Notes under the pieces: model-generated
The model's database searches: none
What the model was told of the DNA's origin: nothing
Seen by the model: the letters and a program-made list of their open reading frames with translations, nothing else
Shown: positions 8,117-56,095 of the stretch, piece after piece
How positions within the stretch are numbered: position 1 is the stretch's first letter
Layout of the letters: the number at the start of each line of letters is the position of its first letter
From: Chloroflexota bacterium
GTDB lineage: Bacteria; Chloroflexota; Anaerolineae; Promineifilales; Promineifilaceae
DNA length: 64,000 nt
Reading direction: 5' to 3'
Assembly: GCA_022616275.1 (NCBI GenBank)
Contig: JAKEFB010000100.1
Coordinates: 1-64,000, forward strand
Position numbers and translations under genes: made by a program

Positions 8117-9391
8117 TTACCTCGCGATACGGCGCTGGAATTGCCAGAGAGCGGCACTTAAGAGAGCAACGGCGATGAGAAACAGAATGCCAACCTCCAG
8201 GACGATGTCAGTGAGCCCCAGGCCTCGCATCGTCAAATCCGCAAAGCCATCCAACGCCCAGCGATTAATGGTGATTTTACTCAACTGCTGTAGCCACTCC
8301 GGGTAATTGGTTGCCGGAACAAAATTACCGCCCAAGGCGGCCGAAACCAGGATGACAATGCTGCCCAAGGTGGCGGCCTGGTTGGTATCCTTGACGAAGG
8401 CGGCAATGACCGCGCCGAGGCTGGTAAAGGCGAAAACTACGACCAGGGTCATGATAACCAGGCCAGGGAGTGACTCTCCCCAGTCCAGGCTAAAAATAAC
8501 CTGGGAGGCGACGACAAAAACAGCAAACTGCAGGATGCCAGTCAACAGGGTGCCGCCTATTTTGCCCAACAGGATCTCGACGTTACCGGTGGGCGTGCTA
8601 ATCAGGCGATCTAGTGTCCCCTCTACCTGTTCATCGAGAATAGAGCGCGCTCCTCTCATAACGGTGAACATCAAGAAGAAAATACCCATACTAGGAGCGA
8701 AAAAGGCCAATGGATTTGCATCGGCCGTTCCACCTTCACCCTCGCCGGTCGTTATCCAGTTCAATTGCGTCGTCGTTAGCGATTCCGTAACGGCCTCATC
8801 CTCGTCGGCCAGATTTATTTCAATTTCTTCCTGGAGGACGGGGCCGAGTTCGGCCATTGCCGCACCCAATATATCCGCCTGGTCACTTATTTGTTCAGCG
8901 GTGACTCTGGTGCTGACGCCCACACTGCTAAAGCCATTGGCTATTTGGGTCATAACGCTGCGGATGATCAACGGGGTAATCGTTGCCGATGGATCGGTGT
9001 AAATCTGAATGACGCTGCCTGAGGTGTCAATGTATTCTATGGTTTCGCTGAAGCTGGGAGGTATGTAGACGACGGCGCGAACTTCTCCCCTGGCTACAAT
9101 TTGCCGCGCTTCGTCCAAATCATCCATGAAAGATGGCTCCAGCAACTCTGCCAACTCAGGGGAATTGAGTACGGCGAGAAATCTCTGGCCGATTACTCCC
9201 TGGTCGCCGTTGACGACGATCAGCGGAATGTCTCTAATGGGGCTGGCGTTAGCATTGGTAATGAAACCACCAAAGGCAGCGCCAACGATAGCAGAAAGCG
9301 CCAGGGGAGCGGCCAACATCAAGATAAGCGCGTTCCGATCCCGGAAGCGAACCAGGGTGTCTTTCAGGGCAATAGCCCATATCTTTCTCAT
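8117..9391 (-). CDS. ABC-2 type exporter permease (first of pair)
   Basis: About 424 residues with the same layout as its neighbour: an N-terminal helix, a large extracytoplasmic loop rich in acidic residues, and a C-terminal block of helices. The segment ARSILDEQVEGTLDRLISTP is characteristic of ABC-2 permeases. ATG 9391 is preferred because AAAGGA lies 8 bases upstream; a TTG at 9409 overlapping the ATPase stop would add six residues. The two permeases are distinct in sequence and probably form a heterodimer with the single ATPase. Confidence 0.9.
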   Translation of the reverse strand: MRKIWAIALKDTLVRFRDRNALILMLAAPLALSAIVGAAFGGFITNANASPIRDIPLIVVNGDQGVIGQRFLAVLNSPELAELLEPSFMDDLDEARQIVARGEVRAVVYIPPSFSETIEYIDTSGSVIQIYTDPSATITPLIIRSVMTQIANGFSSVGVSTRVTAEQISDQADILGAAMAELGPVLQEEIEINLADEDEAVTESLTTTQLNWITTGEGEGGTADANPLAFFAPSMGIFFLMFTVMRGARSILDEQVEGTLDRLISTPTGNVEILLGKIGGTLLTGILQFAVFVVASQVIFSLDWGESLPGLVIMTLVVVFAFTSLGAVIAAFVKDTNQAATLGSIVILVSAALGGNFVPATNYPEWLQQLSKITINRWALDGFADLTMRGLGLTDIVLEVGILFLIAVALLSAALWQFQRRIAR

Positions 9392-9405
9392 GAGGCGTCC
9401 TTTGT

Positions 9406-10362
9406 TCAATCACGCAGCGCACGGCCGGTCAGGTGGAGGAAGACCGCTTCCAGGTTGGGTTCCTGAATTTTCAGTTGCCTTACGTTCCCCCCGGCAGCGG
9501 ATAATTGCCTGAACACGTGCGGCAATACTTCGTTGGCATTCCGTGCCTGCAGGACGATGTGGCCGTCTTCACTGTAAATGCGGTCAATCGTCGAGATGGC
9601 GGACAGGCTGGCAACCAGTGCGTCTTTCTCCAGAAGATTGTCGTCCAGGTCGAGACGAATGGTGTCGTACTGCCCCAGCGTTTTGGTCAATTCGTCCAAC
9701 GTGCCGATAGCGATTAATTCTCCGTGGTCAATGATGCCAATGCGGTCGCTGAGTTCTTGCGCTTCTTCCATATAGTGGGTGGTGTATAAGACGGTAACGC
9801 CTCTTTCCTTGAGTTCTTTCACCGTATCGAGAATGCGCCGGCGGCTTTGGGGATCAATACCGACCGTGGGCTCATCCAGGTAGAGGATCTTAGGTTCGTG
9901 CAAGAGGCCAATAGCTACGTTGAGGCGCCGCTTCATTCCACCAGAGAAGGTCGAGACTTTGTCGTCCGCCCGGTCGCTGATACCGGCTATTTCCAGGGCG
10001 GCCGCTACCCGCTCGTGTAACCGCCTGCCGGTAAGACCATACATCTTGCCCCAGAAAACCAGGTTTTCTCGGGCGCTAATGGTGTTGTAGATAGCCACCT
10101 CCTGTGGTACCAGGCCAATCACCTGTTTGACCTGTCTGACGGCTGTGTTAATGGAATGGCCGTCAATGATCGCATCTCCCCCGGAAGGAGCCAGCAGGCA
10201 AGCCAACATGGAAATGGTCGTCGTCTTGCCGGCGCCGTTAGGTCCCAGCAGGCTGAAGATTTCCCCACGGTGAATCTCAAAAGAAACGTCCTTAACAGCC
10301 ACGATACCGTCAGGGGGGTTATACTGTTTGTGAAGATTTCTTACTTCAATGATAGGCGACAT
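9406..10362 (-). CDS. ABC exporter ATP-binding protein (DrrA/CcmA-like)
   Basis: A 318-residue nucleotide-binding subunit energising the two downstream permeases. Walker A is GPNGAGKTT (residues 40-48), the Q-loop is GLVPQE, the signature is FSGGMKRRL (about 139-147), Walker B is ILYLDEPTVGID (about 159-170), and the switch His is in YTTHYMEEA. A C-terminal extension of about 100 residues is typical of drug or antibiotic exporters. A GAGGAG site precedes the ATG. It is the first gene of a four-gene minus-strand operon. Confidence 0.94.
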   Translation of the reverse strand: MSPIIEVRNLHKQYNPPDGIVAVKDVSFEIHRGEIFSLLGPNGAGKTTTISMLACLLAPSGGDAIIDGHSINTAVRQVKQVIGLVPQEVAIYNTISARENLVFWGKMYGLTGRRLHERVAAALEIAGISDRADDKVSTFSGGMKRRLNVAIGLLHEPKILYLDEPTVGIDPQSRRRILDTVKELKERGVTVLYTTHYMEEAQELSDRIGIIDHGELIAIGTLDELTKTLGQYDTIRLDLDDNLLEKDALVASLSAISTIDRIYSEDGHIVLQARNANEVLPHVFRQLSAAGGNVRQLKIQEPNLEAVFLHLTGRALRD

Positions 10363-10650
10363 GCGATTCTCCTCTCATCAGCGGAACGCCAGGCGCTGCA
10401 CTGACGCAATTAACTCTCCAATGAGAAAGGGCTCCATAGCTACAACTATAGTTGAAGTTGTGCTCTATACAGGGTACTTGAGTAACCTTTAATGAGTACT
10501 TTAGTACTTTTTTTTCTGTTGCTATTTGGTTATACTGTCCAGGGAGATCCTTTGAGGCAATGAAAAGGATGGGTAACACTTTTTGTCGTCGCTTATGCTT
10601 TTACGTTTAGAGCGGTCCAACAATCTTTGTCGCAGGCGGATCAACACTCG
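10363..10650. promoter_or_regulatory. Upstream region of the exporter operon with small palindromes
   Basis: This 288-bp gap has no convincing gene and should hold the exporter operon's minus-strand promoter. CAACTATAGTTG at 10443-10454 is a perfect 12-bp palindrome. A doubled AGTACT lies at about 10495-10508. Either could be an operator. I could not pick one promoter with confidence. A 77-codon minus-strand frame here has no supporting features. Confidence 0.4.
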
Positions 10651-11679
10651 CTAAGATGACTCCTGGACAATGATGGGGGCCGTTTTTTTCTTAAACAAGC
10701 GGTATAGCTTCAACCCAGACGCTGCAACCGATATCAGGAGACCTAAAGCCAGAGCGACGTCAACAACTATTGAGAGGATTGGGATCACATTCTGTTGAAT
10801 TCGTGCCAGCGGTATTGCTGGCCAGCCATGTAACGCGGCCCAATCGGGAGTTATGCCAATGACTGGTGCTCCTGTAATAAGACGGTAAAGGACGAACATA
10901 CCCAACAGGCTCAGTCCAAGATCAAGCCAGCGACTGGCGCGGCGCCAGCGCCCATCTCGTAGAAGCCAAAGATTCAAAAGTAGATTCAGCCCCAGCCAGA
11001 TGTTTAACCAGGGCAGGTGTGTTTCGAACTCAGTGGCCAGTACCGGCAAGAATCTCGATCCCTCATCGGTAACAATGATTGCGCCAACCCATTGGGGAAA
11101 TAAGTTTAGCAAAATCAGGAGAACGCTGATTATAACTGCTTCCCCAGCTAACCATCCTGCACGGACGCGGTCTGGATCGTCAACAGGCGGCAGCTTACGT
11201 GGATCCCAGCGCCTGGCGGCCGTAGCGCCCTTAGGCTCAATCCTCTCAAGGATGGCAAAAACGAAAACGGCCACACCTAAGAGCATAAAGGCGCTATCCA
11301 GAAAAGTAGAAACAGAATCTAATACCGTAGCTGGTAGTTCGCCGATGGGAACACCAGGTAATGTACGCGCCAAATTGAGGGCAAACAGGATGACCAGCAA
11401 AACCGTGATGATGGCCACGATCCTGGTAAAGACAGGGTAAAGTTTTGGTCCGATGAGGTATTGGTTTGGTGGTGCGTAAGAAGCAGCCACCTTTTCTGGC
11501 GGTCCAAACTCTTCAAGAACCGCTACAACCAGTTCTTCATTCTCTTTTTGCCCGGCCCTGGCAGCACGGTCTTCAACAGTATCTTCTAGCAATGAACGTA
11601 GCTCTGTCTCAACGTCTTTGCGGAGATTGGCCGGCAGATTTTGCCCGACTTCCTGGACGTAGCGATCAATCAACTCCAT
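10651..11679 (-). CDS. HAAS-domain multi-spanning membrane protein
   Basis: About 342 residues. The first 75 form a soluble helical HAAS-type domain (MELIDRYVQEVGQNLP, then RKDVETELRSLLEDTVED and VLEEFGPPEKVAASY), as found in membrane proteins paired with PadR regulators. Six to seven hydrophobic helices follow. ATG 11679 has GAGGT upstream and starts 17 bp after the PadR stop; the longer frame to 11739 overlaps padR. The function is unknown, but the PadR-HAAS pair is a recurrent unit thought to sense membrane or envelope state. Confidence 0.8.
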   Translation of the reverse strand: MELIDRYVQEVGQNLPANLRKDVETELRSLLEDTVEDRAARAGQKENEELVVAVLEEFGPPEKVAASYAPPNQYLIGPKLYPVFTRIVAIITVLLVILFALNLARTLPGVPIGELPATVLDSVSTFLDSAFMLLGVAVFVFAILERIEPKGATAARRWDPRKLPPVDDPDRVRAGWLAGEAVIISVLLILLNLFPQWVGAIIVTDEGSRFLPVLATEFETHLPWLNIWLGLNLLLNLWLLRDGRWRRASRWLDLGLSLLGMFVLYRLITGAPVIGITPDWAALHGWPAIPLARIQQNVIPILSIVVDVALALGLLISVAASGLKLYRLFKKKTAPIIVQESS

Positions 11680-11696
11680 CGTTCGTACCTCGACTG

Positions 11697-12041
11697 TTAG
11701 GGCAACAACTGCTCCGTGACCTTTACCAGGGCGCGCCATTCATTGGAGAGATTATGTAAGACCTGTTCACCAGCCGGGCTAATGGCGTAATACCGCCGGG
11801 GTCTTGAATCTTCGACACGCCACCGGCTATGAAGCAGGTTTTGAGATTCTAGCCGCCGTAATAAAGGATAGAGCGTTCCCTGGTCAATTTCGAGTCCCTG
11901 TTGAGCGAGGGCTCGTTGTAAGGAATAGCCATATTGCTCTTGGCGAAGTTGACTCAGAACAATCAGGGCAAGCACTCCCCGGCGGAGTTCTAAGAGAAGG
12001 TTGTCGTAAGGCTCCATACCTGAGGAATCGCCCTTTGCCAT
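11697..12041 (-). CDS. PadR family transcriptional regulator
   Basis: About 114 residues with a winged helix: LRRGVLALIVLSQL, YGYSLQRALA, GTLYPLLRRLE and SRPRRYYAISPAG are classic PadR features. ATG 12041 is preferred because the farther ATG (12050) lies inside the -10 box; 12017 (MEPYDN) is a further possibility. With the predicted start point near 12041-12042 the mRNA would be leaderless. It is followed by the HAAS protein and is divergent from the pheromone-like cassette, so it may control both directions. Confidence 0.88.
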   Translation of the reverse strand: MAKGDSSGMEPYDNLLLELRRGVLALIVLSQLRQEQYGYSLQRALAQQGLEIDQGTLYPLLRRLESQNLLHSRWRVEDSRPRRYYAISPAGEQVLHNLSNEWRALVKVTEQLLP

Positions 12042-12066
12042 ATGTCGCATTATAGTGTATGTCGCA
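12041..12066. promoter_or_regulatory. Direct repeat TATGTCGCA around the padR -10 box (candidate operator)
   Basis: TATGTCGCA occurs at 12041-12049 and again at 12058-12066, a 17-bp period, bracketing the -10 element of the padR promoter. PadR proteins commonly bind ATGT-containing sites and repress their own genes. The second target could be the divergent comX-like gene 65 bp away. Confidence 0.5.
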
Positions 12067-12078
12067 CAGCATTGTCAA
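12049..12078 (-). promoter_or_regulatory. Near-perfect sigma-70 promoter of padR
   Basis: On the minus strand TTGACA (12078-12073) is separated by 18 bp from TATAAT (12054-12049). Both hexamers are consensus. The start point should fall near 12042, at the first base of the ATG, predicting a leaderless message. Confidence 0.8.
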
Positions 12079-12131
12079 ATTGTTTTTTTTGGCCCCCAGC
12101 GGGCTAAATGTTTTCAGTGAGGAGGTGTAAC

Positions 12132-12341
12132 ATGACGCTACTGCAGCAGTTGGTTTATCAGGTCGCAACGGACTCGGGATCACGGTCTCAATTTCAAACA
12201 GGCGTACTGAATGCAGCGCTGTCGCAAGAAGAACAAGAAGCACTGTTATCTCTTCGCCATTTACTGGGCCTGTCTCCCGAGGAGTTGTTGCAATCTTTGA
12301 CGAACCGCAATCTGTTGGGCTGGATCTGGCCAGACAACTAG
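12132..12341 (+). CDS. ComX-like pheromone precursor peptide (candidate)
   Basis: A 69-residue peptide starting at ATG 12132 behind a strong GAGGAGGTG site. The body is helical and acidic (TLLQQLVYQVA, LSQEEQEALLSLRHLLGL) and the last seven residues are GWIWPDN, with Trp64 and Trp66. ComX precursors have a helical leader of similar size and a short C-terminal segment with an essential Trp that ComQ prenylates. The next gene, 50 bp downstream, is a ComQ-like polyprenyl synthase, then a ComP-like kinase. Gene order and the Trp tail carry this call; sequence identity to Bacillus ComX is not evident by eye. The leader also resembles Os1348/NHLP-type RiPP leaders, so a different prenylated RiPP is the main alternative. 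Confidence 0.62.
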   Translation: MTLLQQLVYQVATDSGSRSQFQTGVLNAALSQEEQEALLSLRHLLGLSPEELLQSLTNRNLLGWIWPDN

Positions 12342-12391
12342 TCGCTTGCCAGATAGCCTGATTCGTTGAGCGTTCTTCCTTAAAGGAGAGA

Positions 12392-13441
12392 ATGGCTCAG
12401 AGTGGTCCTTTGCCCGGTTGCGCCGGCGCCGCCAACCCTGACCAGGAAAGCGGCGCTGACGTTACCGGCCGCTTTTTTTACCTGGTCTCTGAGCAGGTTG
12501 AGACAGTTGTCGCCGGCATTCACAATAATTCGGCGCTGAAGGCAATTGTAGAAAAGCTGGTTCAAAGCGACTGGGAAAAGAAAAAACAGCACTGGCCGCA
12601 CGCCCTCCTGCCACTCCTGACCTGCCAGCTCGTCGGTGGCCCAGTTGAAGCGGCCGTCCACCTGACATGTGCCTGGAATTTACTTCATCTGGCCGCCCAC
12701 GTCCTGGACGACGTCGAGGACGAGGGTTGCTTTGTGGGGCTGGATGGTCCCATACCTCTGGGGGAGACAATCAATCTAGGGACTAGCTTAATTTTTTTAG
12801 CTCAGCTCGCATTCGATCGGTTGTCCGACACTGGCGTGCCATTATCTCTAGCCTGGCGAGTTCGCCACGAACTTCATCAGGTAATTACCCGGATGGGGGC
12901 CGGCCAACACCAGGATCTGGCCGTCATGGCCAGTTCTGAACCGGATTTGGCTACCTATTGGCAGGTGATTGGAGACAAAACCGGTTGTTTCTTCGGCTGG
13001 GCTGCCCAGAGTGGCGCGCTGATTGGCGGGGGGAGTGATTCTCAAGTTGAGGATTGCTATACGTACGGGTATAACATGGGCCTCTTGCTGCAGATATTGG
13101 ACGATTGGACCGGGTTGAGTTCTAATGAAGGCAGCAGCGATCTGGCCCAGGGCAAAAAAACCCTGCCGGTACTTTACGCCCTGGCTGTCGCCCCGGCCTG
13201 GCAGAAAGAGCAGTTGAAAATATTGCTGGAAGAAGCGCATTTTCAGAGCGATGCAGAGAGTAAGATCCGGGAAGAGATTGTTCGTCTAGGAGGGTTGCAT
13301 TACACGTTGATTCAGGCAGAGATCCGGCGTAAGCGAGCTGAAACTGCTCTTTTGAATCTGCCTGGCTCAGAATCTCGTGACTGTCTCTTGATGTTGCTGG
13401 ATCAGGCGTTTCCTATCCGGCCGGGTTCGCACCGTTTATAA
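12392..13441 (+). CDS. ComQ-like polyprenyl synthetase family protein
   Basis: A 349-residue all-helical prenyltransferase. The first Asp-rich motif is intact as VLDDVEDE (about residues 103-110). The second region reads QILDDWTG (about 233-240) followed by SSDLAQGKKTLPVLYAL, where the DLxxGKKTLP block is typical of the isoprenyl-diphosphate synthase/ComQ family. DDWTG lacks the last Asp of the usual DDxxD, which suggests a modified role compared with chain-elongating synthases. AAAGGAGAG precedes the ATG. It lies between the Trp-tailed peptide and a ComP-like kinase, with only 2 bp to the latter, arguing for peptide prenylation. An ordinary isoprenoid synthase is the alternative. Confidence 0.8.
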   Translation: MAQSGPLPGCAGAANPDQESGADVTGRFFYLVSEQVETVVAGIHNNSALKAIVEKLVQSDWEKKKQHWPHALLPLLTCQLVGGPVEAAVHLTCAWNLLHLAAHVLDDVEDEGCFVGLDGPIPLGETINLGTSLIFLAQLAFDRLSDTGVPLSLAWRVRHELHQVITRMGAGQHQDLAVMASSEPDLATYWQVIGDKTGCFFGWAAQSGALIGGGSDSQVEDCYTYGYNMGLLLQILDDWTGLSSNEGSSDLAQGKKTLPVLYALAVAPAWQKEQLKILLEEAHFQSDAESKIREEIVRLGGLHYTLIQAEIRRKRAETALLNLPGSESRDCLLMLLDQAFPIRPGSHRL

Positions 13442-13443
13442 AA

Positions 13444-15936
13444 ATGGCTGGCCTCAACCGATTTCGCACCTACCGGATCAAACACCGGCGCCTGGTTATA
13501 TTGGCCGTGTGCCTGGTCAGCTTTGCGCTCCTGGGCTTTCTTGCTGAGGCAGCTCTCATAGTCGTCCGCCAACCTTACCACGGGCTTTTTTGGTCGTTGA
13601 CGCAAGGCGAAGTCCTGGCGGTGGCGCCTGATAGTCCGGCGGCTGTAGCCGGGCTGCAACCAGGGGATGGCATTGTAGCCATCGGCGGCCGGTCACTGGA
13701 AGAATCGCTGATTAACTCCACTCTCGGGCCAAGCATGGCGTCTTTGGTAGTTGCCCGCGGTGAACAGGAATTCTTGGTGAATCTTCAGTTCGTTCGCCCC
13801 CCGACATTGGAACTCGTCAAGCGTCTGGTCCCTTTGTTAGTTGCCCTATGCTTTGCCCTGTTCAGCTTTGGTATATGGACTTATAAACCATACGATTTGA
13901 CTGTTATTTTTTATTGGCTTTTTAGCCAACTGGGGGCGGCCGGTCTTGCATTGGGTGAGTTATCTAACCTGGCACTGCCTTTTGCGACGAGGTGGTTCGG
14001 AATTCTTCTCTGCATTCTATCTCCTGTCCTGGTCCACTTCCATTTGCTCTTTACCCGTGTTCAACGACGTCCGGTTCAAAAATGGATTCTGGCCGGTTTA
14101 TACACCCTGGCCTTCTTAGCTGCGATCTGGTGGTTGAACTATCCGGTACCTATCAACGACCAGGGATATATGTTGCTCGGCAAGGCAACCCAACTATTCT
14201 TCGTTTTAGCTGTTGGAGGGGCAGGAGGAATCCTGACTTACGCTTATTTCTCCTACACCTCGCCGTCACAGCGTCGCCGCATTCGCCTGGTCGTGTTTGG
14301 GACGTTTGCCGCTTTCTTGCCCCTGATTGGTTTGGCGCTTTTACCTGACGTGTTTGCCGGCCGAAACCTGGTTGCCTACGAATTTACTTTTCCTTTTCTC
14401 CTCTTTATCCCCTTTGCCTACGCGGTGGCGATAAACCAGTATAATTTGTTGCAAATAGAGCGGGCAGTTAACCGTAGCATCGTTCACCTGGTCTTATTTT
14501 TGATTCTGGCCTGGATTTATTTGTCCCTTCTGACGACATTGCCTCGTTTATGGGGAGGCTCGTGGGCTGATCAACCGCTGGCCTGGGGATTAATTACACT
14601 ATTGCTGGCGGCGATTTTCACGCCCTTGCGGAACCGGCTCCAGGCCCTGGCCGACCGTTTATTCTACGGTGGTTGGTATAACTACCGTTCAGTAGTTGGT
14701 GAAATGAGCCGGGGGTTGAGTGGCGTCGTAGACCGTGATGAATTAACACGGCTGCTGGTAGATCGACTATCACAAATATTACACCTGGATGGAGCCGCCT
14801 TTCTCCTGCAAAACAAAGAGGACGAACTGATCCTGGTTAAGACAGTGGGCTTTGCCTCTTTTCCTGCCAGTTTAAGCACGGCCGGGGCACTGGCGCGCCA
14901 ATTGGTCCAGGCGGCGCAACCATTATCGGCCGTAGAATTGCGAACTGCAGTGGCAGGAATTCCGCTGACCGAGGAAGAGCGTGCCTGGCTGGCGCAGCCT
15001 CAGATCAATATATGGGTTCCTATTACCCGCTACCAGGAGTTACGGGGGATTTTATTCCTGGGTATGCGTCTTGACGGTGAATCTTTCGATGCAAACGACC
15101 GCCGCATGTTGGACACGCTTGCCTGGGAAGCCGCAATTGCAGCAGAAAATGTTCAACTAGTGGAAGCCTTGCGGCAGCGGACGGCCGAAGTTAACTTGCT
15201 CTATTCTCAACTGATTCAGAGCCGGGAAGCGGAACGTAAACGGCTGGCGCGGGATTTGCACGATAGTGTCATACAAGACCTTATCAATTTACATTTCTGC
15301 CTGGACCCTGGCGCTTACGACCTGTTAACTGCGCCCAGAGACGAAATTATGGCTCTACGCCGGCGCCTGCAAATTGTTATTGAGGATTTGCGACAGGTAT
15401 GTATCGAGTTGCGGCCGGCAGCACTGGACGATCTAAGTCTCGCTTTTGCTATCCAAGGCTATATAGAAGATGTCGCCGCGCAATACGGTCTGAAGATCAA
15501 TCTGGCGCTGGCCGGCGATCAGAATCCGGCCGTCCAGCGTTTGCCAGAAGAGGTCGAGGTATGTTTATTCAGGGTATCGCAAGAGGCGATTACCAATGTA
15601 CGCCGCCATGCCGAGGCTAAACAAGTCTGGGTGAAGTTGACGATAGAAAGTAATTATGTCTCTTTGGAAGTAGCTGACGATGGGCGAGGTTTCCACTGGT
15701 CCACAAAAGACCTGAGGGCGCTAACCCGTAACCACCATTTTGGTTTAGCCGGGTTGCAGGAGCAATTACATCTAATTGGTGGCGTTCTTCACATCCAGTC
15801 AACGCCAGGGAAGGGGACGGTTTTGCGGGCCGACGTACAGTTAGCCAGTAAAACTGTAGTTGAGGAAGAGGTCTTGTCTGGTAACGCCCTCCTTCTTAAT
15901 CTTGCAGGTCCTCAGGCGACACTAAGTTCTGACTGA
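13444..15936 (+). CDS. ComP-like membrane sensor histidine kinase with PDZ-like loop
   Basis: An 830-residue kinase. Residues about 15-40 form a membrane helix, then an extracytoplasmic PDZ-like domain (VLAVAPDSPAAVAGLQPGD, IVAIGGRSLEES) to about 115. Many hydrophobic helices follow to about 400, a GAF-like segment to about 590, and a HisKA_3 dimerisation domain with ARDLHDSVIQDL (phospho-acceptor His606). The ATPase domain has QEAITNVRRHA, VADDGRGF and FGLAGLQEQL. This is the HPK7 class that includes ComP and NarX. It starts 2 bp after the ComQ-like gene. The natural reading is that it senses the modified peptide and phosphorylates the convergent response regulator. Its 3' end overlaps that gene by 41 bp. 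Confidence 0.9.
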   Translation: MAGLNRFRTYRIKHRRLVILAVCLVSFALLGFLAEAALIVVRQPYHGLFWSLTQGEVLAVAPDSPAAVAGLQPGDGIVAIGGRSLEESLINSTLGPSMASLVVARGEQEFLVNLQFVRPPTLELVKRLVPLLVALCFALFSFGIWTYKPYDLTVIFYWLFSQLGAAGLALGELSNLALPFATRWFGILLCILSPVLVHFHLLFTRVQRRPVQKWILAGLYTLAFLAAIWWLNYPVPINDQGYMLLGKATQLFFVLAVGGAGGILTYAYFSYTSPSQRRRIRLVVFGTFAAFLPLIGLALLPDVFAGRNLVAYEFTFPFLLFIPFAYAVAINQYNLLQIERAVNRSIVHLVLFLILAWIYLSLLTTLPRLWGGSWADQPLAWGLITLLLAAIFTPLRNRLQALADRLFYGGWYNYRSVVGEMSRGLSGVVDRDELTRLLVDRLSQILHLDGAAFLLQNKEDELILVKTVGFASFPASLSTAGALARQLVQAAQPLSAVELRTAVAGIPLTEEERAWLAQPQINIWVPITRYQELRGILFLGMRLDGESFDANDRRMLDTLAWEAAIAAENVQLVEALRQRTAEVNLLYSQLIQSREAERKRLARDLHDSVIQDLINLHFCLDPGAYDLLTAPRDEIMALRRRLQIVIEDLRQVCIELRPAALDDLSLAFAIQGYIEDVAAQYGLKINLALAGDQNPAVQRLPEEVEVCLFRVSQEAITNVRRHAEAKQVWVKLTIESNYVSLEVADDGRGFHWSTKDLRALTRNHHFGLAGLQEQLHLIGGVLHIQSTPGKGTVLRADVQLASKTVVEEEVLSGNALLLNLAGPQATLSSD

Positions 15937-16549
15937 GGGCATACAATACCGCTTCTACTCGCGTTTCCACATCCAGTTTGCGGAATATCCTTCTCACATA
16001 GTTTTTCACCGTTTGCTCTGTCAATGTTAGCTTCGCACCAATTTCCGCGTTTTTATAGCCGCTGGCTATCAAGCGCAGCACTTCGATTTCTCGCTTGGTC
16101 AACTCACTAATTGGCTGTTGGTTGCGTTCACTCGCTGACTTTATCAGTATTTCCATGACCCGTGGCGAAAACCATTGTTGCCCGCGGGCTACGATTCGTA
16201 CAGCCTGGATGAGCGTTTCCTGGGGATCGTCCTTGAGTAGATACCCGGCGGCGCCTACTTCTAACAGACCAATGGCATATTCCCGTCGCCGATAGGCAGA
16301 AAGAACCAAAATTTGCAACTCGGGGTGACGATTGCGCAAAGTCTGCACCGTTTCAAGTACCCTATGGCCTGGCATGTGCGCATCCAGTAGAAGGACGTCA
16401 GGTTTAAGGGCCTTGACCACGTTTAGCAGTACGGTGGCATCAGCAACCTCACCAACCACAGCAATATCCGGCTCTTTGGCCAGTAAGGCTGCCAGGGCGC
16501 CTCGCACCACGTGATGATCTTCAGCTAGAACGACTCTAATTTTGTTCAT
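15896..16549 (-). CDS. ComA-like NarL/FixJ response regulator
   Basis: About 217 residues. The receiver domain has the acidic pocket AEDHH near residue 11, phospho-acceptor Asp56 in LLLDAHMPG, and the conserved Lys in YLLKDD. The C-terminal LuxR-type helix-turn-helix reads LTKREIEVLRLIASGY and LTEQTVKNYVRRIFRKL. Start ATG 16549 begins the receiver fold; 25 extra in-frame codons upstream are not expected. It is encoded convergently to the kinase with a 41-bp tail overlap. Partnership is inferred from class match (HPK7 with NarL) and adjacency. A likely target is the comX-like promoter. Confidence 0.88.
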   Translation of the reverse strand: MNKIRVVLAEDHHVVRGALAALLAKEPDIAVVGEVADATVLLNVVKALKPDVLLLDAHMPGHRVLETVQTLRNRHPELQILVLSAYRRREYAIGLLEVGAAGYLLKDDPQETLIQAVRIVARGQQWFSPRVMEILIKSASERNQQPISELTKREIEVLRLIASGYKNAEIGAKLTLTEQTVKNYVRRIFRKLDVETRVEAVLYALSQNLVSPEDLQD

Positions 16550-51457: not shown

Positions 51458-52465
51458 ATGGCGCGAATATTTTTGATTATGATTCGTAGTTCCGTGTTCC
51501 CATCGCTTAACACCCTCCCCCCACCCCCACCGGATAGAAGCGGCTGGCCGTGGACCGAAGCCAGCCCGCAACTGCCGGAGCAGATGCCGGACGGCTCGCC
51601 CTGGCCGCGCATTAGCGTGGTCACCCCCAACTATAACTACGCCCACTTTGTCGAGGAGACGATCCGCTCGGTGTTGCTCCAGGGCTATCCTAACCTGGAG
51701 TACATTGTCATTGACGGTGGAAGCAACGATGGCAGTGTCGAGATTGTTCGCCGTTACGAGTCGTGGCTGACTTGTTGGCTCAGCGAGTCAGACAAAGGAC
51801 AGAGCCAAGCCATCAACAAAGGTTTCGCACAGGCTAGCGGCGAACTCTGGGGATGGCTTAACAGTGACGACGTTTATTATCCAGGCGCCCTAGCCGTAGT
51901 AGCCCAGATGCTGGCTCAACACTCTCGCACAATGCTGGTAGGAGCAGCCACGTTGACGGATGATCCTCACCAACTGGCCGGCCGGGAAGATCGCCGGCAA
52001 CCGGACTGGGAGGAAATGGCCTACGACGGCCGGACCTTCCCCCAACCCAGCACTTTCTGGACGGCCGACCTGTGGGAACTATCAGGACCGCTGGCACAAG
52101 ACCTACACTATGCGATGGACTTTGAACTATGGCTGCGGATGCGTCCCTATGCCAGTAATGTGTTCTTCACTGATGCATTGTTGTCATATGAACGCCTGCA
52201 CGAAGAACAGGCACCCCTCCGAGCTGTGCGTCGGGGTGAATTTGAACCAGTCAACAGTGAAAAGGCTTATGCCGTTTTACAGGCTGCCAGGAGACGGGGT
52301 GAACGTCCTTTGAAATGGTTGCTAAAGAGCTATGGCCGGCGCTTCCAAACGGCTCACCGCTATGGGCGATATTCCATGCTGTGGAGGTCTGGATTCCATC
52401 GGGTTGCCCTAAAGATGGCTTTGGGTCGAGGATTGCGTAATAATCGTCGGCATGGTTCAAATTAG
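51458..52465 (+). CDS. Glycosyltransferase family 2
   Basis: A 335-residue GT-A enzyme: RISVVTPNYNYAHFVEETI at the N-terminus, YIVIDGGSNDGSVEIVRRY, GWLNSDDVYYPGALAV (DxD as SDD) and a late FTDALLSYERLHEEQ. Its stop codon falls inside the left arm of an inverted repeat at the boundary of the AT-rich island. Start choice (51458 or 51479) is uncertain. Confidence 0.92.
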   Translation: MARIFLIMIRSSVFPSLNTLPPPPPDRSGWPWTEASPQLPEQMPDGSPWPRISVVTPNYNYAHFVEETIRSVLLQGYPNLEYIVIDGGSNDGSVEIVRRYESWLTCWLSESDKGQSQAINKGFAQASGELWGWLNSDDVYYPGALAVVAQMLAQHSRTMLVGAATLTDDPHQLAGREDRRQPDWEEMAYDGRTFPQPSTFWTADLWELSGPLAQDLHYAMDFELWLRMRPYASNVFFTDALLSYERLHEEQAPLRAVRRGEFEPVNSEKAYAVLQAARRRGERPLKWLLKSYGRRFQTAHRYGRYSMLWRSGFHRVALKMALGRGLRNNRRHGSN

Positions 52466-52592
52466 CTTGACACTTTTATGTGAAGTGCTTTGGGAATAAC
52501 CGCGATACTGCATCTTTTTCCAGAGTAACGAGTGCGAATCATTGAGAATAAGCGAAAAATTTTTCAAGGTCCTTTTCAAAGTGTCAAGCTAA
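52462..52592. repeat. MITE-like 131-bp segment bounded by 15-bp perfect inverted repeats
   Basis: TTAGCTTGACACTTT (52462-52476) and AAAGTGTCAAGCTAA (52578-52592) are exact inverted repeats separated by 101 bp of AT-rich sequence without an ORF. The left arm overlaps the glycosyltransferase stop codon. No target-site duplication is visible. It marks the left edge of the AT-rich island. Confidence 0.55.
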
Positions 52593-52673
52593 CTTTCCGG
52601 GTTTTTGAACTATGCCTAATCGTCATAAGAATCTTTAACCCTTTTTGTCAATCTTTTTTTGAGGCTCGGGACA
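52593..52673. other. AT-rich leader of the island operon
   Basis: 81 bp of AT-rich sequence with a T-tract at about 52652-52660 separate the inverted repeat from the first island gene. I see no clear promoter hexamers and no RNA gene. Confidence 0.3.
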
Positions 52674-52949
52674 ATGGCGAAACAAGGAAAGCAGTCTATT
52701 GGGGAGTTAGCAGTACTGATTAGTGCTATTGCGCTAATCATTGGTCTTATAGCGGATGGCGCTGATTTAGTAGAATTAGTTTCGGTTAACCCTTCCGATC
52801 CACAAGGGACATTCGTGGGCAAAGCCTTCTTCTTCTTGCTACTAACCCTGTATGGGCCAATTGCCTTACTTGCATGGATGCATGCTCGATCTTTGACTTC
52901 ACGTAAAAGTCAGAATGCTATTGCCATGATGGCCGGGTGGGCTCATTGA
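52674..52949 (+). CDS. Small two-helix membrane protein (AT-rich island)
   Basis: A 91-residue protein of unknown function. Two hydrophobic segments are clear: ELAVLISAIALIIGLIADG (about 12-30) and FFFLLLTLYGPIALLAWMHA (about 52-72). It overlaps the next gene by 13 bp with a change of frame. The next protein begins with another hydrophobic segment, so these two could once have been one four-helix membrane protein. Base composition is far lower in G+C than the flanks. Confidence 0.6.
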   Translation: MAKQGKQSIGELAVLISAIALIIGLIADGADLVELVSVNPSDPQGTFVGKAFFFLLLTLYGPIALLAWMHARSLTSRKSQNAIAMMAGWAH

Positions 52950-54847
52950 CTGTTTGGGAAATCAAGTTTTTCGTCAATCCGCTTGGAGCTAATCTTTCTC
53001 AACCCCAGCAAGCTTTGGCTTCATTACTTGCTCTAATAATCGCAGCGTTGCTGGGAACAGTTGTCTTTCGCAAAGTGGTTGTGCCCCTAGCGGATAGTCT
53101 TGCCGGACGGTTGTCACCGTTGTATGAAATAATGGGTGGTGAATATGATTTCCCTGTAGTGTGCTTTAGGATTTTACCGCAACCTGACTGGCGTCAACGG
53201 AAAATCCGGATGAAAGTTTTTAGTCAAGCAATAGCTAAAGTATTACACAGTCATTACGATTGGGGAAATACCGATTTGGCTACGTTACAAACAGGGACCG
53301 AATGGGTAGTTGTCGGGATTAAGCTGACTGCCACAGAGATATTTGACCTGACAAGAGAAACCTTAAGAACCTATAGAGCTGCTCTTCTGACAGAAGGAAT
53401 AGCTTTAGAAATAAGCGAGGTCGATGTGGGGGTAGGAATGGAACGTGGGCAGGTTTTTTCGATCAGCCACCCGATCAGGGAATTAGATACAGTACCCGCT
53501 GGCATTGGTGTGGATGGCGCATGCCGTCTGGCTTCAGTTTCGGAGAAAGGTACCGTTCTGCTAACGAAGAATTTCTTAAATGCGCTAGAGGCAAGTGATG
53601 ATGGTTATGATTTAGCCAAAAAGTTCACGAGGCGCCTTGGATACCTTGATCTCGGCTCACTACGACCGGATGTATATGAGGTTTATATCAGTGGTGAGAT
53701 AGGTCGTCCACAGGTAACAGTTCCACAGGCATCAATTTTGTATGATACTGACGCTCTATCTGTTCGCCTTCTAGAACTTTTATCCCGGGCAGGAATACAG
53801 CCATGGCCTCAAGTGGAGAAGCTTAGAGATAATGCAGATAAATCAGTTCTTGCTATTGATGGTGTCATCTCGATAGTTGAGCCTCCTGGCTATAAAGGAT
53901 GGAAACCAGATCCTAATCTCGTTGTTATCAATTTGCGTCAAAGGGCTGAAACTATAACCTACTGGCCGCCCAACTGGCATGAAGAGCTAAGAGAAAAATA
54001 TGGTCAATTAGAGGAAGGCGCCATAAATAGGAATAAAGTGTTCATAGACAAATGGGATCCCCCGATACTTGATCGTGGAGGTAAACTGCGGCTCTGGTTG
54101 GGAATAAGCACATATAGAGACAATAGGGCGTTGGAAGCGGTCTTGAACCTGAACAGGAAGAAGAGACAAAGTCAGGAACAAGAGGGTGAGTTTGATTGGA
54201 TCACATTTGAGTGGAAATCTGAGGATGAATGGGACCGAGTCTTTCGTTGGCGCGACGGCCGTCTTGTCGATCTTCGGTGGGAGTATTTTAATAACACTAT
54301 AGACTTTTGGGAATACTTACCCAATATGATAGTTTTGACGCCAATTGTAATCTCCAGTGATAACAAAATAGTGTTTATGCGGAGAAGCAACAAGGTAAAG
54401 TACTACCCTGGTCACTGGTCTATCTCGCTAGAAGAACAGATCGATCCAAACCAGGATGCATTAAGTGAAACTTTGCTCAGGAAGGCAACTGAAAGGGCTG
54501 TTGAAGAAGAGCTTGGAGTTAAAATTAGAGAGATGGAGATCTTATCTATTTATAGAGAGTGGCATAACGGGGTCATAAATGTTGCCATTCTGGCACATGT
54601 TGATAGGATGTCTGGCTCTATTGAAAATGCATGGCGGCAAGCTGTGGACGAACATGAAGCTCAACAAATTCACTTTGAACCTTTTATGGATTTGGACAAC
54701 ATGCTTAATATCCTGCGAACTTCCAGTTATAAAGGGGGTAAATTTCATCCAGGCTCAAGATACCGATTATTGTTAGCACTGTTAGCAGAGCATGGCTTTG
54801 AAACAGTAATCCAAAAGCTAGGCGAGATCGTGAACTACGAAAATTAA
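52937..54847 (+). CDS. Membrane protein with degenerate cyclase-like domain and Nudix-like domain
   Basis: A 636-residue protein of unknown function. Residues about 25-60 hold a membrane helix (ALASLLALIIAALLGTVVF). Residues about 70-235 resemble the fold of class III nucleotide cyclases: VGVGMERGQVF and GVDGACRLASVSEKGTVLL mirror the RIGIHxG and VNxAARLxxxAxPGxIL elements. The metal-binding Asp of the first strand and the GD turn are missing, so it is probably inactive as a cyclase. Residues about 455-600 form a Nudix-like domain with ERAVEEELGV resembling the Nudix helix and a conserved YYPGHWSISLEEQIDPNQ upstream. Start GTG 52937 overlaps the small membrane-protein gene. The region from about 250 onward is paralogous to the next protein. 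Confidence 0.72.
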   Translation: MGSLTVWEIKFFVNPLGANLSQPQQALASLLALIIAALLGTVVFRKVVVPLADSLAGRLSPLYEIMGGEYDFPVVCFRILPQPDWRQRKIRMKVFSQAIAKVLHSHYDWGNTDLATLQTGTEWVVVGIKLTATEIFDLTRETLRTYRAALLTEGIALEISEVDVGVGMERGQVFSISHPIRELDTVPAGIGVDGACRLASVSEKGTVLLTKNFLNALEASDDGYDLAKKFTRRLGYLDLGSLRPDVYEVYISGEIGRPQVTVPQASILYDTDALSVRLLELLSRAGIQPWPQVEKLRDNADKSVLAIDGVISIVEPPGYKGWKPDPNLVVINLRQRAETITYWPPNWHEELREKYGQLEEGAINRNKVFIDKWDPPILDRGGKLRLWLGISTYRDNRALEAVLNLNRKKRQSQEQEGEFDWITFEWKSEDEWDRVFRWRDGRLVDLRWEYFNNTIDFWEYLPNMIVLTPIVISSDNKIVFMRRSNKVKYYPGHWSISLEEQIDPNQDALSETLLRKATERAVEEELGVKIREMEILSIYREWHNGVINVAILAHVDRMSGSIENAWRQAVDEHEAQQIHFEPFMDLDNMLNILRTSSYKGGKFHPGSRYRLLLALLAEHGFETVIQKLGEIVNYEN

Positions 54848-54891
54848 GTGGTTGTAATCGTTGGTTCACTATTACGAGGGTGATTAACGGT

Positions 54892-55911
54892 GTGAAGAAT
54901 AGTACGCAGTTGCTCCAACAAATTGGAGAATCATTACAAAGTGCAGGCATAAAAGCCGCTCCTAAAGCCAAAAGAATTCTTGAAGCATATAAACGCGACA
55001 CATTAGCTATTGATGATGCGGTCTTAATTATAGCACCCTCAGATTTAAAGGGCTGGATGTCCCCATCACAATTTATGGTGACCCTGTCCCAGGATGATCG
55101 CTTGCTTAATTTACCCTCTCTAAGCGAACTAGAAAAGCAGTATGGTTTTATTCGAAAGCCACAAAGAAATGAGTCGAAGTTTACGATACTTCACTGGGAA
55201 CAACATTGTGTAAACGACGAGTGGGTCCTAGAATTGCAAATGGGCAGAAGTTCAACGGAAGTAAACGTTGTAATCGAGTTTATGATTGATCATCCTGTAT
55301 TGGAAATTTCTCCGGGGCGACACTGCACGCTTTATGAAGCCTATCTTACCAAGATCTTTGACTTTTGGACTCATTTACCTAATCTCGTTACAGTAACGCC
55401 CGTGATTAAAACCTTGGACAATAAAGTGTTATTCACCAAGCGCTCTGCAAAAGTTTTCTACTACCCTGCCCATTGGGAGGTGTCTATTTCGGAACAGATG
55501 AACCCGAACCAGTTGAGCGACAAAAGATTTTTCTTCCATGGAGCCATTGAGAGGAGTATCCGAGAAGAACTTGGTCAGGTTGAAATTTCACAAATCCAAG
55601 TTTTAGGATTTTATCGCGAAGTTTCAAATTTAAACGTGGATGTCGGTGCATTAGTCATGGTGAATGAGAAAGAAAATGAGATACGAAAGGCAATAGCTGC
55701 AGCACCGGATTTAGACGAACACTCTAACATTGAATTCGAGCCGTGGAACCCTGAAAACTCAGTACAACTTATTTCTAGCACTCACTACAAAGCTCGAAGT
55801 TCATCTGCATTATCTGGGCCATACCATCCAAGTGCGCGAATGCGACTACTGTTGGCCATGTTGGCAGACTTTCCCCACGAAACATTACTGAGTTTAATCA
55901 ATCAGCAATAG
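54892..55911 (+). CDS. Nudix-like paralogue of the preceding protein (AT-rich island)
   Basis: About 339 residues, soluble. It shares with its neighbour IDDAVLII, HLPNLVTVTPVI, LFTKRSAKVFYYPAHWEVS and SEQMNPNQ, and a Nudix-helix-like ERSIREELGQVEI, at matching spacing, so the two are paralogues. The N-terminal membrane and cyclase-like parts are absent. GTG 54892 is chosen because GAGGGTG lies 8 bp upstream; GTG 54880 is an alternative. Whether the Nudix domains still hydrolyse a nucleotide is not clear from the incomplete boxes. Confidence 0.72.
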   Translation: MKNSTQLLQQIGESLQSAGIKAAPKAKRILEAYKRDTLAIDDAVLIIAPSDLKGWMSPSQFMVTLSQDDRLLNLPSLSELEKQYGFIRKPQRNESKFTILHWEQHCVNDEWVLELQMGRSSTEVNVVIEFMIDHPVLEISPGRHCTLYEAYLTKIFDFWTHLPNLVTVTPVIKTLDNKVLFTKRSAKVFYYPAHWEVSISEQMNPNQLSDKRFFFHGAIERSIREELGQVEISQIQVLGFYREVSNLNVDVGALVMVNEKENEIRKAIAAAPDLDEHSNIEFEPWNPENSVQLISSTHYKARSSSALSGPYHPSARMRLLLAMLADFPHETLLSLINQQ

Positions 55912-55945
55912 CTAAGAAACACTTGTCTGGCAGTTCTCCAAATAA

Positions 55946-56095
55946 AACCAGACCAGCGACCACATCTGGTGGATCAGCGATAACGGCCGCTTCATGAGCG
56001 ACTACCCCCGTTGGGAACCAGCTTACGACGTTCCTGCCATTCTGCAAGAGATTTACGCTATGAACCGGGAGCGGTGGGGTGGAAAGACCCCGTAG
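55946..56095 (+). pseudogene. C-terminal remnant of an NAD-dependent sugar-nucleotide epimerase
   Basis: The frame from 55946 to the TAG at 56093-56095 reads [20 protein letters not shown] followed by [18 protein letters not shown], which matches the end of CDP-paratose 2-epimerase/NAD-dependent epimerase proteins. An in-frame TAA lies immediately upstream at 55943-55945 and no start precedes the homologous part. About 280 residues of the enzyme are missing. The remnant begins where the AT-rich island ends, so the island or its insertion removed the 5' part. Confidence 0.7.

Follow-up and report, generated by a model that had tools for sequence, protein, structure and literature searches.

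A candidate ComQXPA-like prenylated-peptide signalling cassette outside Firmicutes, in a Chloroflexota bacterium

Is ComQXPA, the prenylated-peptide pheromone system of Bacillus subtilis and its relatives, also represented in the phylum Chloroflexota? The question is raised by four genes at positions 12,132 to 16,549 of a 64,000-nucleotide stretch of DNA (the window) on contig JAKEFB010000100.1 of a Chloroflexota bacterium of the family Promineifilaceae (GCA_022616275.1; 8.53 Mb in 309 contigs). An earlier note, made from the sequence alone, described there a 69-residue peptide ending in GWIWPDN, a polyprenyl synthase with DDVED and DLAQGKKTLP motifs 50 bp downstream, an HPK7 histidine kinase starting 2 bp after the synthase and a convergent NarL-type regulator, and likened them to the ComQXPA gene set in a different order (X-Q-P, then convergent A). 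All of this holds: the peptide gene has an AGGAGG ribosome-binding site, the synthase matches PF00348, the kinase carries PDZ_6, GAF_3, HisKA_3 and HATPase_c domains, and the regulator carries Response_reg and GerE domains (Table 1). In our judgement these genes are likely to form a cell-to-cell signalling cassette, namely a ComQXPA-like prenylated-peptide module outside Firmicutes.

The note's statement that the system is described mainly from Firmicutes agrees with a census of genomes to 2013, which places ComQXPA-like loci in Firmicutes only (PMC4008528); for chloroflexi, another paper reports a histidine kinase-response regulator pair alone (PMC8895600). A literature search at the level of titles and abstracts, with subscription papers and preprints outside its coverage, found no report of the full set in Chloroflexota.

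Does the enzyme resemble ComQ rather than an ordinary polyprenyl diphosphate synthase? Canonical synthases are recognised by GGKRxRP, by the RRG residues of the isopentenyl diphosphate (IPP) site and by two DDxxD motifs. The window enzyme has neither GGKRxRP nor RRG (the aligned position of the former varies between alignments; the absence of the latter is stable), and its pattern, allylic DDxxD kept and IPP site lost, is that of ComQ. GKxxR, and RR or RH after the first Asp motif, were found in 24/24 canonical rows, which had been chosen partly by their IPP residues; RR/RH was absent from 69/69 ComQ-like rows, all of which kept DDxxD, and two of the 69 (P0028 and P0029) had K and R at the first IPP site without the glycine. 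The same loss of IPP residues and retention of DDxxD was seen in four genuine ComQ, taken from plasmid records of Bacillota. P0027, P0034, the second open reading frame (ORF) of L016, L038 and the repeat loci L044-L046 and L049 were excluded from this row count. Because the loci of the wide-profile scan described below were sorted, by eye, on the IPP motif itself, only groups A (which holds the window) and B, together with the four ComQ and the tree's P rows, give independent motif evidence. At the second motif, ComQ and groups C, D and K have ND or GD and groups A and B have DD (group K is called Ktedonobacteria-type from the names of protein matches). A glutamine upstream of this motif was rejected as a diagnostic, being present in 24/24 canonical and 69/69 ComQ-like rows.

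The tree was built without sorting on the IPP motif (57 rows, unrooted; 14 rows, near-copies for the most part, omitted, and group C absent). A 100/99 branch separated the nine canonical rows from all others, and starred branches set off A, B, D and ComQ in turn; ComQ was placed with group D and Ktedonobacteria-type rows (94/88), and A and B with the second ComQ-like enzyme of the window's own genome (98/97). A single ComQ-like clade is possible from this topology, provided that the root falls among the canonical rows. Clustering of the synthase homologues with ordinary synthases, which the earlier note had named as telling against its reading, was not seen. A profile comparison of the enzyme with ComQ (hhalign) gave E 7e-25, a value not specific alone, and an AlphaFold model (predicted local distance difference test, pLDDT, 86.8) adopts the trans-prenyl-synthase fold, which alone does not separate prenyl synthase from Trp prenyltransferase function. 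A phage search with Anoxybacillus ComQ and a viral-contig scan returned nothing, and a plasmid search with the window synthase returned distant matches only (25-31%). Two plasmid records may be mentioned in their own right: a conjugative plasmid of the cyanobacterium Acaryochloris marina encodes a synthase with a ComQ-like DDCTD and no RRG (L038, 5833-6780), and a plasmid recorded as Stenotrophomonas rhizophila (L039, CP031730.1) holds comQXPA in a gene context like that of Lysinibacillus plasmid L036, so labelled probably through misassignment or contamination.

Is the small ORF a genuine precursor? A leader profile made from other groups only ranked the window peptide first among the 465 small ORFs of the window (E 1.4e-4), and a metagenome-assembled genome of the same family (L002) carries all four genes, arranged alike; together, this rank and this recurrence place the cassette beyond chance. 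Between the two loci the peptide leader is 62% identical (residues 1-58), the kinase 54% and the regulator 66%, whereas the peptide tails do not align (PLAEWG versus GWIWPDN). With leader profiles that left out one group at a time, the correct ORF came first in 16 of 22 loci and second or third in two. Trp is the sole invariant residue across 17 aligned peptides. The window tail holds two, Trp64 and Trp66, one residue apart, with three residues after the second; these positions and the length of 69 residues fit the description of ComX (52-73 residues, with a variable tail and a Trp no more than 5-10 residues from the C-terminus). The joint peptide profile scored 20.3 against ComX (probability 25%), 40 column-shuffled controls reaching at most 11.3, and we regard this match of profiles as suggestive.

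The window peptide had no Pfam or NCBIfam assignment at E up to 1 and, as a single query, returned itself alone; the alignment profile (A11) retrieved 327 proteins with an E cut-off of 10. Among the best 120 of these 327, Trp lay within the last four residues in 120/120 and was absent outside the last twelve in 118, a count that is partly selected since the search profile included the Trp column. The same best 120 had 96 different last-six and 107 different last-ten tails. In the Ktedonobacteria-type peptides (117 of the 120 listed) the 42-residue leader averaged 76% pairwise identity and the eight residues before Trp 26%, and such tail diversity beneath a fixed leader looks like that of pherotypes. 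Loss of the Trp tail among homologues, a second outcome that the earlier note had held against itself, was likewise not observed among these 120, and Trp was kept in the 22 scored loci as well. Peptides of other groups gave weak matches to LigA (25.2 bits, cut-off 25.3) and Nif11 (21.6 bits, cut-off 23.8), and the window peptide gave neither. One homologue bears the name 'Nif11-like leader peptide family natural product precursor'. A ComX family search of the window's own genome found no match; it is a weak search, because its control, which rang in 9 of 14 genomes, rose above the cut-off in none of them, B. subtilis included.

How often do these genes travel together? A scan of genomes of the order matched 7/57 with E no higher than 1e-40, among them the own genome and that of L002, and gave five further loci (L025-L029) in which genes for a W-tail peptide, a synthase, a kinase and a regulator follow one another (Pfam was run on two of the kinases, and the regulators were recognised by eye). 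A scan of 400 genomes of the phylum matched 8/400 and led to L013-L015 and L018; with a wider profile 338/400 matched, ordinary synthases included, and 28 new loci drawn from it were divided, according to motif, between ComQ-like (13) and canonical (15). Nine new loci of those 13 and three unsorted same-family matches make up L072-L083, all twelve ComQ-like by motif; the loci are a sample of the wider-profile matches and not a census. Scoring covered 22 ComQ-like loci (the window, L002, L013, L014, L015, L025-L029 and L072-L083), L018, whose gene is cut by a contig end, and L040 being left out. A peptide was called by a fixed rule: a same-strand ORF of 45-110 residues, ending between -500 and +60 from the enzyme, with Trp in its last nine residues. 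Such an ORF was present in 22/22 ComQ-like loci, always with a ribosome site, and in 4/18 distinct canonical-synthase loci (4/19 of all; L017 is among the canonical), or 2/18 (2/19) with a ribosome site; the distinct canonical loci number 18 because L008 repeats L016. For 22/22 versus 4/18 the Fisher p is 1.3e-7; it is 5.0e-7 when L080-L083, which come from four species of a single genus and have enzymes 82-96% identical, are counted once. Moreover, the sensor gene lay directly downstream of the enzyme in 21/22, the 22nd (L081) being cut by a contig end. The synteny of peptide, synthase and kinase that the earlier note proposed to look for recurs in several Chloroflexota lineages.

Is the kinase related to ComP? 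The window kinase has the ComP architecture, a polytopic N-terminal sensor with PF07730 and PF02518, and the regulator that of ComA, PF00072 with PF00196. A profile (A8) covering residues 1-420 of seven kinases aligned by hhalign with one of three Bacillota ComP sensor halves (A9) at probability 98.9 and E 2.3e-17 over 292 columns; judged by these profiles, the sensor half of the kinase is homologous to that of Bacillota ComP. Five further sensors (groups C and D and the second locus of the own genome) matched A8 with scores of 115-164 (E 2e-15 to 2e-22), and four of the five matched A9 (scores 73-110); 30 further membrane proteins of these loci, taken as controls, reached at most 40 and 24, respectively. 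Among L072-L083, which belong to groups K and D, the sensor was found by A8 in 11/12 and by A9 in 7/12. A structure predicted for the sensor half from a pair of sequences had a pLDDT of 48 and was left unused.

The earlier note needs correcting on four points: the peptide lies outside PF05952, related leaders look weakly Nif11/LigA-like, several Chloroflexota lineages have the system, and the output half varies across loci. The same module is present in other Chloroflexota with exchanged outputs: i) a HisKA_3 kinase with a NarL-type regulator in groups A and B; ii) a PAS-HisKA-HATPase-receiver hybrid kinase in L014, L015, L072 and L077; iii) a GAF-HisKA kinase in group K (Pfam run on L073, L074 and L080), in some cases with a small MarR-like gene next to it; and iv) in L013 (10005-12251) and L018 (787-3150), a protein, encoded next to the ComQ-like enzyme, that joins a ComP-type sensor to GAF and HD-GYP domains and is possibly a pheromone-controlled phosphodiesterase of cyclic di-GMP (c-di-GMP).

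The gene set is kept as a unit, the enzyme has lost the IPP site and kept the allylic one, Trp is kept in a variable tail, and the sensor is homologous to ComP. Because a Trp-ending peptide, a ComQ-like enzyme, a ComP-related sensor and a regulator stand side by side, the bacterium likely signals its neighbours by a prenyl-tagged peptide. On the model of the characterised ComQ and PalQ systems, from which we infer the prenylation with its chain length and Trp, the proteolytic trimming and the export, the binding, the phosphotransfer and the target genes, the ComQ-like enzyme would attach a prenyl group to Trp in the peptide tail, the peptide would be trimmed and exported, and the ComP-like kinase would sense the processed product and likely phosphorylate the neighbouring regulator.

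Three other explanations were weighed. It is unlikely that the product is a prenylated, ribosomally synthesized and post-translationally modified peptide with another main role (an antimicrobial or a membrane lipopeptide) whose own production the kinase merely tunes: the below-cut-off LigA and Nif11 matches and the Nif11-like homologue name are typical of natural-product precursors, and a LanM-type gene (DUF4135 and LANC_like) and a C39 peptidase gene lie upstream of the cassette in L027 (1874-8108), but no transporter, protease or immunity gene recurs beside the set in the ORF tables, read by eye, the sensor is of the ComP type and the tails vary as pherotypes do. We give very little credence to an enzyme that prenylates another substrate while the unmodified peptide is the signal; peptide prenylation is argued here from analogy, the tail offers two Trp and the DD motif is unlike that of ComQ, yet Trp is the only residue never exchanged among the aligned peptides, and Trp is what the characterised enzymes of this kind act upon (PMC13290415). 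That the enzyme is simply a polyprenyl diphosphate synthase of the ordinary sort, with an unrelated small ORF and two-component system as neighbours, is scarcely credible; this was rejected on IPP residues, tree and neighbours, since, for all its PF00348 domain, its relatives named geranylgeranyl diphosphate (GGPP) synthase and its GGPP-synthase-like fold, it has lost the IPP site, the canonical rows lie behind the 100/99 branch, the genome already holds two canonical synthases, and peptide and sensor accompany the enzyme in 22/22 and 21/22 loci.

Several observations nevertheless weigh against a ComQXPA-like signalling module, or against strict membership of ComQXPA: i) Bacillus has Q-X-P-A on one strand, and the window X-Q-P with a convergent regulator; ii) the window peptide, searched as the earlier note had proposed, is not a member of PF05952 (ComX), for which the positive control, Anoxybacillus ComX, scored 2.7e-20, and profile matches to ComX are suggestive at most (probability 8.8-25%; 0.5% for groups C and D alone); iii) the correct ORF was not ranked first in 6/22 loci, and the leader profile failed in L080-L083; iv) DDWTG of the window enzyme departs from the NDxxx/GDxxx pseudo second Asp-rich motif of ComQ, and the ComQ literature deems DD unsuitable where ComQ needs ND or GD (PMC5331326); v) the predicted fold best fits GGPP synthases, Ord1 (PDB 9v4g) matching it at TM 0.73; vi) the sensor profile matches, at least partly, eight proteins encoded in the own genome (the window kinase among them), so that this domain is not confined to pheromone sensing; vii) by eye, no recurring transporter or protease gene was seen beside the set; and viii) the second locus of the same genome (L040; G000:C248, 7990-12623) offers no clear peptide. 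That locus has, in a different arrangement, a regulator, an opposite-strand ComQ-like synthase, with DDMLD and without the IPP site, and a kinase whose sensor is of the PYAGL type; the only peptide candidate is a 48-residue ORF upstream of the synthase that ends in SWSDWSAQAE and has no leader likeness, and its sensor, scoring 22, does not match A9. It was counted neither for nor against in the 22-locus tally. On the fourth point, PalQ of Paenibacillus alvei has Asp at the second motif and remains active without those Asp (PMC10853753), and Ord1 likewise has Asp there (PMC13290415). Strict membership of ComQXPA therefore fails on PF05952, on ND/GD and on gene order; that the module works like ComQXPA has good support. 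The earlier note's reading is supported, with its words 'pheromone' and 'prenylated' standing as predictions.

We also lean, by a little, towards a broader proposal, in which an old, phylum-wide family of Trp-prenylated pheromones in Chloroflexota would comprise at least 100 pherotypes, Bacillus ComQXPA would be one of its branches, and the ComP-type receptor would plug into NarL pairs, hybrid kinases and HD-GYP proteins alike. If this is true, a pheromone would in some lineages control the second messenger c-di-GMP within a single protein. With a family that spans lineages of Chloroflexota, the phylum gains a candidate peptide language, many new natural Trp-prenyltransferase candidates come with matched peptides, the receptor domain is delimited by conservation across output types, and the origin of ComQXPA becomes testable.

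As for the layout (Table 1), the 3' ends of the kinase and regulator genes overlap, and an alternative in-frame start of the peptide gene (ATG 12108, 77 residues) lies upstream of the start at 12132, which the ribosome site suits. Some synthase relatives bear the names Promineifilaceae, Anaerolineae and Chloroflexota among the protein matches, and NCBI taxonomy places Promineifilaceae in Chloroflexota. Divergent from the cassette are genes for PadR, HAAS, an ABC ATPase and an ABC permease (8117-12050); as an exporter they were dropped, none standing beside the L002 cassette or in the ORF tables of other loci. Between the PadR and peptide genes (12041-12078) is a direct repeat, TATGTCGCA, in copies 17 bp apart, which overlaps a perfect minus-strand TTGACA-18-TATAAT promoter before the PadR gene and is perhaps a PadR operator. 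Positions 52001-56000, with a guanine-cytosine (GC) fraction of 0.43-0.47 in a contig of about 0.6, may be a mobile island.

Table 1. Genes and sites of the cassette in window coordinates.
Feature	Position	Strand	Remark
Precursor peptide gene, 69 residues	12132..12341	+	Leader approximately residues 1-58; variable Trp tail RNLLGWIWPDN
AGGAGG ribosome-binding site of peptide gene	12120..12125	+	Six bases 5' of ATG 12132
Trp64-Ile65-Trp66, candidate prenylation site(s)	12321..12329	+	Trp64 is the invariant Trp column of 17 aligned peptides
ComQ-like trans-prenyltransferase homologue, 349 residues	12392..13441	+	PF00348, 87.6 bits
DDVED, first Asp-rich motif, allylic diphosphate site	12707..12721	+	
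QILDD (Q234-D238), second Asp-rich motif region	13091..13105	+	Last Asp replaced (DDWTG)
ComP-like sensor histidine kinase, 830 residues	13444..15936	+	
PDZ-like segment of sensor half	13612..13707	+	PDZ_6, residues 57-88
GAF domain of kinase	14740..15150	+	GAF_3, residues 433-569
HisKA_3 and HATPase_c of kinase	15232..15843	+	Residues 597-661 and 706-800
NarL/ComA-type response regulator, 217 residues, convergent	15896..16549	-	Response_reg 76.2 bits, GerE 69 bits

How, finally, does the cassette compare with known systems? With ComQXPA it shares four components, an enzyme without IPP site, a precursor with a near-C-terminal Trp and a variable tail, a sensor with PDZ-like and polytopic parts, a HisKA_3 kinase and a NarL-type regulator; besides its gene order, it differs in a peptide outside PF05952, in DD for ND/GD (groups A and B), in the GAF domain of the window kinase and in its phylum. 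The indole prenyltransferase Ord1 is alike in fold and in its Q-x-x-D arrangement, its structures including Q216A and D219A mutants of these residues, and we know of no precursor-peptide gene for it. Unlike what is predicted for the window enzyme, Ord1 acts on free tryptophan (PMC13290415). PalX-PalQ-PalP of Paenibacillus alvei was compared by its published description (PMC10853753): the description gives the Pal cluster three genes, none of them for a regulator, whereas the window set has one, and PalQ needs Trp as the last residue, whereas 0-6 residues follow the last Trp here, three in the window peptide. On the other hand, the two share a natural-product-type leader (NHLP in PalX; weakly Nif11/LigA here), a Trp at or near the C-terminus, a Trp prenyltransferase resembling a trans-prenyl synthase, and an adjoining histidine kinase.

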